Assembly: GCA_029233985.1 (NCBI GenBank)
Contig: JARGOK010000001.1
Coordinates: forward strand, 495,096-559,095
From: Candidatus Altimarinota bacterium
GTDB lineage: Bacteria > Patescibacteriota > Gracilibacteria > JAUYGZ01
Direction of reading: 5' to 3'
DNA length: 64,000 nucleotides
Under the pieces are notes generated by a model. The model saw only the letters and a list, made by a program, of their open reading frames with translations. It was not told the DNA's origin and ran no database searches. Below, in pieces: positions 13,710 through 49,459 of the stretch (its first letter is position 1; the number at the start of each line of letters is the position of its first letter). A program made the position numbers and the translations under genes.

Positions 13710-15168
<1,459 letters not shown>

Positions 15169-49118: not shown

Positions 49119-49152
49119 AAACAAAAAAACCTCTCTTACGAAAGGTTTTTTA
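49119..49152 (-). terminator. Terminator of rpsU
   Basis: AAAAACCT (49125-49132) and AGGTTTTT (49143-49150) form an 8-base-pair stem with a 10-base loop, flanked by A and T runs on both sides, so it may work in both directions. It lies 32 bases after the rpsU stop. Confidence 0.8.
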
Positions 49153-49183: not shown

Positions 49184-49399
49184 TTAGTAATGCTTCAGCT
49201 TCTTTCGAATACCTCGATAGTGCTCTCGCTTGAGTGCAATCATCTTCGTTTTTGTTTTACTTGGCTTTTTTCGAGCTTTATCGAAGTATCGCTGTCTTTT
49301 AAAAGCGTTTTGAACACGCGCAGATTGCGCCTTCTTTTTCCAACGACTAATGATTTTCTCACTTGATTCGTTTTCACGTCTTATAGCTGCTACTGCCAT
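49184..49399 (-). CDS. rpsU: Ribosomal protein bS21
   Basis: A 71-residue very basic protein: VAAIRRENESSEKIISRWKKKAQ near the N-terminus, FKRQRYFDKARKKPSK in the middle and a K/R-rich tail, as in bS21. bS21 binds near the 16S 3' end and the anti-SD. Uniquely among the genes here, it has a perfect SD (AGGAGG, five bases before the ATG). It has its own promoter and terminator, so it is monocistronic. See finding on SD use. Confidence 0.93.
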   Translation of the reverse strand: MAVAAIRRENESSEKIISRWKKKAQSARVQNAFKRQRYFDKARKKPSKTKTKMIALKREHYRGIRKKLKHY

Positions 49400-49404
49400 A
49401 TATG

Positions 49405-49410
49405 CCTCCT
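49405..49410 (-). promoter_or_regulatory. Perfect Shine-Dalgarno sequence of rpsU
   Basis: AGGAGG on the minus strand, five bases from the rpsU ATG and complementary to CCTCCT at the 16S 3' end in this window. No other start in the window has a comparable match. Confidence 0.9.
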
Positions 49411-49431
49411 GATTAGTAATAAAGCTTAGCT

Positions 49432-49459
49432 ATTGTAAATGAGACATGGATGAAGTCAA
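49432..49459 (-). promoter_or_regulatory. Promoter of rpsU
   Basis: On the minus strand TTGACT (49454-49459), a 16-base spacer and TACAAT (49432-49437). The start near 49425 gives a leader of about 26 nt that contains the SD. Confidence 0.65.

Follow-up and report, generated by a model that had tools for sequence, protein, structure and literature searches.

In a genome of Candidatus Altimarinota (Patescibacteria, class Gracilibacteria), the gene for ribosomal protein bS21, rpsU, carries a Shine-Dalgarno (SD) sequence of a kind that essentially no other gene there uses, and this sequence is probably a feedback site through which bS21 regulates its own synthesis by means of SD/anti-SD pairing. 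Among 117 genomes of Patescibacteria, mostly MAGs and each represented by one rpsU leader, an rpsU SD of −11 kcal/mol or stronger was found in 49, belonging to 42 GTDB families. Moreover, none of the sampled genomes with a mutated anti-SD has an rpsU SD. Pairing between the rpsU SD and the 16S tail is well supported by these sequence comparisons, and we infer that access to the tail is restricted by bS21 and that the feedback operates in vivo.

The rpsU locus and its product

The window, i.e., the whole stretch of 64,000 nucleotides that was analysed, holds rpsU on the minus strand as an open reading frame for 71 amino acids (49184..49399). On that strand, the SD AGGAGG (49410–49405) is followed by the spacer CATAT (49404–49400) and the start codon ATG (49399–49397), and the resulting AGGAGG-N5-ATG confirms the perfect SD, five bases before the start, that a preliminary description had claimed. 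The SD (49405..49410) pairs with CCTCCT of the 16S tail at about −10.5 kcal/mol (−10.3 to −10.5), and it is retained as AGGAGGT in a genome of the same family (G001). The 16S rRNA gene itself lies at 13710..15167 on the minus strand (RF00177, 1482 bits) with the 3′ end GGATCACCTCCTATTAAGG; the 16S rRNA thus ends in GGATCACCTCCTATT, and the anti-SD core CCUCC is intact, as had also been described.

Further upstream of rpsU, a consensus scan detected a sigma-70-like promoter, TTGACT-N16-TACAAT (49432..49459, minus strand), which matches at 10 of 12 positions, a score of which about one match is expected by chance in the region. Position 49459, the end of the stretch first singled out, is the outer end of the TTGACT −35-like box. 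In G001, TTGACTT and TACAATAGCTAAGCTT likewise lie upstream of rpsU. On the 3′ side, the scan found a terminator-like hairpin with a T run (49124..49151, minus strand), by consensus match only. Given the promoter-like pair upstream and the hairpin downstream, rpsU is probably transcribed alone as its own single-gene transcript, and the SD would then lie within a 5′ leader of about 25 nt.

The 71-residue product is, to judge from its sequence, a divergent bS21. Its best Pfam match is PF01165 (E 1e-3) at 19.2 bits, under the curated cut-off of 27, and TIGR00030 (E 5e-3) scores 16.5 bits against a cut-off of 28.95; a family search of this genome misses it. The assignment rests on these sub-threshold best matches together with two further lines: the best PDB matches are chloroplast and bacterial bS21 chains, and among the matches to a profile of the product and its relatives are many bS21 chains of known structure, bacterial as well as plastid, with a best E value of 1.7e-8. 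Since the curated models score 49184–49399 below cut-off, annotations may undercount bS21 in this lineage. A single-protein query found orthologues in 172 of 288 genomes of the class, and a profile search detected bS21 in 229 of the 286 genomes sampled across the phylum. Among the contigs covered by the bS21 profile search, the named records of the class are Candidatus Peregrinibacteria and Gracilibacteria (17 named loci). Between genomes that carry the rpsU SD and those that do not, bS21 sequences show no clear difference.

Shine-Dalgarno use in this genome and its relatives

Starts were called with a home-made, SD-blind gene caller in the window and twenty 20-kb stretches, together 464 kb or 28% of the 1.66-Mb genome, which yielded 340 usable starts. 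SD matches of 4, 5 and 6 nt occur at 40, 8 and 3 of them, as against 38.1, 9.4 and 1.2 in shuffled leaders, and the mean pairing energy is −1.96 versus −1.98 kcal/mol, i.e., no SD signal; G is depleted at positions −14 to −1. The three 6-nt matches are that of rpsU and a GGTGAT and a GTGATC, the latter two falling in ORFs with 6–8 alternative starts. Apart from rpsU, no unambiguous start has AGGAGG at the proper distance. By energy it ranks second of 340, behind a pyruvate-kinase-like ORF of the same genome (L077, 6827–8206; −12.2, from an imperfect GGGTGGTGAT at long spacing). Counted genome-wide as a bare pattern, AGGAGG-N3-10-ATG has 140 sites against 110 in the reversed control, and none of 30 inspected sites is a called gene start. 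None of the 24 starts of the S10/spc ribosomal-protein region has an SD (best −4.8, compared with about −10.5 for rpsU), nor has rpsR (+0.6); rpsU accordingly has the strongest SD among the ribosomal-protein genes checked, which are the S10/spc region and rpsR rather than every such gene. The earlier statement that other starts lack an SD therefore stands, with 340 starts indistinguishable from shuffled leaders, and the sampled 464 kb contain no set of many equally strong SDs. Per-genome counts of AGGAGG-N4-9-ATG against reversed controls were also tried and were replaced by start-based energies, because most matches sit inside genes and make the count a blunt gauge.

Across the 117 genomes, rpsU SD energies are bimodal, and 40 genomes fall between −13 and −20 kcal/mol. 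Inside the class, 16 of 58 genomes and 11 of 18 families reach −11, while 33 of the 58 genomes have no rpsU SD; outside it, 33 of 59 genomes and 31 of 56 families do so. Values of −13 or stronger are found at 49% of rpsU genes in 88 loci, compared with 1.1% of the 1267 starts in their neighbourhood and 0.2% of shuffles. Of 74 non-redundant loci, 36 have rpsU as their strongest start, where 4.8 are expected (binomial p 3e-23 for locus rank). The result is unchanged when alternative starts are allowed, with −11 reached by 41 of 79 rpsU genes and by 61 of 1140 neighbours. The usual leader reads AAGG(A/G)GGTGA(T), or AAGGRGGTGAT, the bases beyond the core being conserved at 96% (T), 82% (G) and 71% (A), and this consensus beyond AGGAGG is the complement of UCACCUCC in the 16S tail. 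The commonest spacing from GGAGG to the start codon is 9 nt (21 of the 49 genomes). The rpsU SD is therefore present in relatives throughout the phylum, contrary to the lack of conservation that the preliminary description would have taken as a refutation, though its distribution is patchy and it has been lost repeatedly, even within families: of the two other members of this genome's own family, G001 retains AGGAGGT, and G002 has AGCAGA in the equivalent place and no SD.

Two side observations concern particular loci. In family f15 (L037, L039, L041, L042, L053 and others), rpsU reads through an in-frame TGA; a recoded TGA is expected of Gracilibacteria. The rpsU leaders of this family read AAGGGGGATAG or AAGGAGATAG and may fit a 16S tail other than the usual one. 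At L135, a 139-aa protein with a CxxC pair and no assigned function (2076–2495) has a strong SD, AAGGAGGTGTAAG (−16.1), in a neighbourhood that is otherwise SD-free. Additionally, rpsR was considered as the SD-bearing gene in place of rpsU, a substitution that was not seen in the class.

Three regimes of SD use can be distinguished. In the first, which includes many genomes and the present one, neighbouring and ribosomal-protein genes are without SD signal, which leaves rpsU by itself. In seven genomes of the class (G000, G001, G004, G206, G060, G198 and G285), ribosomal-protein starts resemble shuffled leaders, rpsU lies at −10 to −19, and no start of the ribosomal-protein region reaches the rpsU energy. 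In the second (G300, G408, G415 and G349), SD use is general, yet rpsU exceeds the other starts by far, at −19 to −20. In the third (G367, G412, G403 and G447), SD use is general, rpsU has no SD, and a −10 box lies just before its start, which suggests that the rpsU mRNA is leaderless; the loci L174, L182, L183, L162, L179 and L151, from SD-using genomes with an SD-less rpsU, have a TATAAT-like box 6–11 nt before the start. As a general alternative to the SD, leaderless rpsU was rejected, a −10 box preceding 13 of 35 SD-less rpsU genes and 22% of neighbours (p 0.06, not significant).

Start codons differ as well. Outside the class, TTG or GTG starts are found in 23 of 33 strong-SD rpsU genes but in only 3 of 24 weak-SD ones (Fisher 3e-5) and in 13% of the genes neighbouring rpsU, whereas nearly all class rpsU genes, including the one described here, start with ATG. 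A strong SD joined to a weak start codon is an arrangement in which initiation depends on pairing, fitting a regulated gene. These data bear on the rather unlikely reading that the SD merely boosts rpsU expression, bS21 being needed in stoichiometric amounts and a short single-gene leader relying on pairing, with no feedback involved. Such a boost would suit the second regime, where extended SDs occur in generally SD-using genomes and rpsU is simply the strongest; however, other ribosomal proteins are needed in equal amounts and have no SD in the same genomes, and the company of TTG and GTG starts argues against simple maximisation.

The rpsU SD and the 16S tail

Readable 16S ends were obtained for a minority of genomes, comprising 22 with an rpsU SD (here −8 or stronger) and 17 without. 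CCTCC is kept in all 22 of the former, and the anti-SD core is mutated in 12 of the latter. Six of seven sampled members of family f6 are mutated (TCTCC, CTTCC or TTTCC), G068 keeping CCTCC, and the other altered cores are TCTCT in G119 and G085, CCTCT in G005, CTTAA in G325, CTACA in G519 and AATTA in G541. Altered or absent cores are located at L275, L276, L277, L281, L289, L290 and L291 in f6 and likewise at L273, L274, L278, L283, L287 and L292, with GGAACATCTCC, GGAACACTTAAAC and GGAATAATTAAAT as examples from among all of these loci; at L277, CCTCC is retained inside an otherwise altered tail. The association between SD and anti-SD has a Fisher's exact p of 1.6e-6 for genomes that are related to one another. 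On a 16S tree, about five co-loss events and three well-supported pairs can be discerned; of the pairs, usually two are concordant and one is uninformative, while none is discordant. With about five events and two or three supported pairs, a phylogenetic pair test cannot reach significance. Both states occur within family f5 (G206 with SD and CCTCC, G005 with neither) and within family f19 (G026 and G036 with both, G085 with neither). Five SD-less genomes keep CCTCC, namely G367, G447, G023, G025 and G068; G367 and G447 use the SD elsewhere and hence have a reason to do so. No compensated SD/anti-SD pair was found in the Patescibacteria sample.

As the SD is lost jointly with the anti-SD, pairing is supported as its function, and the absence of the bS21 site where the rRNA end is mutated points to control of bS21 synthesis by bS21 itself, acting through the ribosome. 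As a separate observation, all 11 sampled genomes of f46 are without the anti-SD pattern, and those included in the bS21 profile search have no detectable bS21 (apparent losses).

The patchy distribution and the repeated losses, even within families, would be expected if the rpsU SD were an undecayed relic of an SD-using ancestor, but this is very unlikely: no SD is left at the other starts, those of all ribosomal-protein genes sampled among them, whereas 42 families still have the rpsU site, mostly with 7–11 exact bases, and it is gone wherever the sampled anti-SD is mutated. Furthermore, rpsU of E. coli, the sole control from outside the phylum, has just a moderate SD (AGGTGA, −8.5). Slighter still is the prospect that AGGAGG(TGAT) acts by a route other than 16S pairing, e.g., as a leader site for bS21 or for an antisense RNA; bS21 is an RNA-binding protein that adjoins this very rRNA sequence, yet the consensus exactly complements the 16S tail beyond the core, the spacing is of SD type (9 nt in those 21 of 49 genomes), and the motif is absent where the tail is mutated. 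A chance AGGAGG upstream of one gene is hardly credible, for although 340 shuffled leaders should yield about one 6-nt SD match, this one falls on rpsU, is kept in G001 and has counterparts before rpsU in 42 families.

A candidate bS21 feedback loop and known systems

Feedback by bS21 would operate through the pairing of the rpsU leader with the 16S 3′ tail, a pairing of which essentially no other gene here makes use. On 30S subunits that have no bS21, the tail would be free and initiation on rpsU mRNA would be good. Once bS21 is bound beside the anti-SD, the tail would become less available and rpsU translation would drop.

A circuit of this kind is experimentally established in Flavobacterium johnsoniae (McNutt et al. 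2023, PMC9976891), where the 16S tail is free on ribosomes without bS21, which are better at translating rpsU, and where complete ribosomes hide the tail in a bS21/bS18/bS6 pocket (PMC9976891). As in Bacteroidia, the present genome is SD-poor with an intact anti-SD, rpsU is its outstanding SD gene and the product adjoins the anti-SD; additionally, the rpsU SD reaches past the core in many Patescibacteria relatives. In other respects the systems differ. Tyr54 of bS21 is uniquely conserved in Bacteroidia and stacks on A1534 (PMC9976891), whereas the equivalent position in the Patescibacteria bS21 alignment, judged against the F. johnsoniae sequence, is a non-aromatic residue. Strong rpsU SDs were defined in Bacteroidota by a threshold of −13 kcal/mol (PMC9976891), and the value of about −10.5 found here, from a 6-bp SD at the weak end of the range, is weaker than that under energy settings that differ from those of PMC9976891. 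The Bacteroidia pattern proposed in the preliminary description, an SD-free gene set with an SD at rpsU, is present here, and the Bacteroidia mechanism may accompany it, the missing Tyr54 and the weaker SD speaking against. Moreover, Patescibacteria are another phylum, in which TTG and GTG rpsU starts are common outside the class, a strong rpsU SD also accompanies general SD use, and the rpsU SD is lost together with the anti-SD in several lineages. Hiding of the anti-SD is established in Bacteroidia and would be expected of the loop in Patescibacteria, a phylum for which no ribosome structure was found.

Two further groups are instructive. All Chlorobia, which also belong to Bacteroidota, have rpsU SDs at or beyond the −13 threshold without Tyr54, for which a similar but not identical mechanism has been suggested (PMC9976891); the missing Tyr54 is shared with the present case, and the distribution is uniform there and patchy in Patescibacteria. 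In Chryseobacterium-type Flavobacteriales, as the work of Jha et al. 2021 is related in PMC8710568, an alternative anti-SD UCUCA occurs with compensating rpsU leaders. On that account, leader and anti-SD change together there and pairing is kept, whereas in Patescibacteria both are lost.

Why organisms that hardly use SD pairing conserve the anti-SD is an open question. More tentatively than for the feedback site itself, and with the balance lying slightly on the side of doubt, it is proposed that SD-free Patescibacteria keep the anti-SD chiefly for rpsU, that a phylum-wide bS21 loop with ribosomal contacts unlike those of Bacteroidia may exist, and that SD and anti-SD decay once the loop is abandoned. 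The GTPase Era binds GAUCACCUCC. As Era is mostly absent from Gracilibacteria (PMC12641178) and absent from most CPR (PMC10582724), it is unlikely to explain the retention of the anti-SD.

No earlier report of this rpsU SD pattern in Patescibacteria was found in the open-access literature, subscription papers and preprints lying outside the search. The phylum offers a natural experiment, since relatives with or without the rpsU SD and the anti-SD occur in matched combinations. If the proposal is true, a strong rpsU SD should be the rule wherever a genome is SD-free and its anti-SD intact, and specialised ribosomes lacking bS21 would occur in a further phylum, a very large one, besides Bacteroidota.
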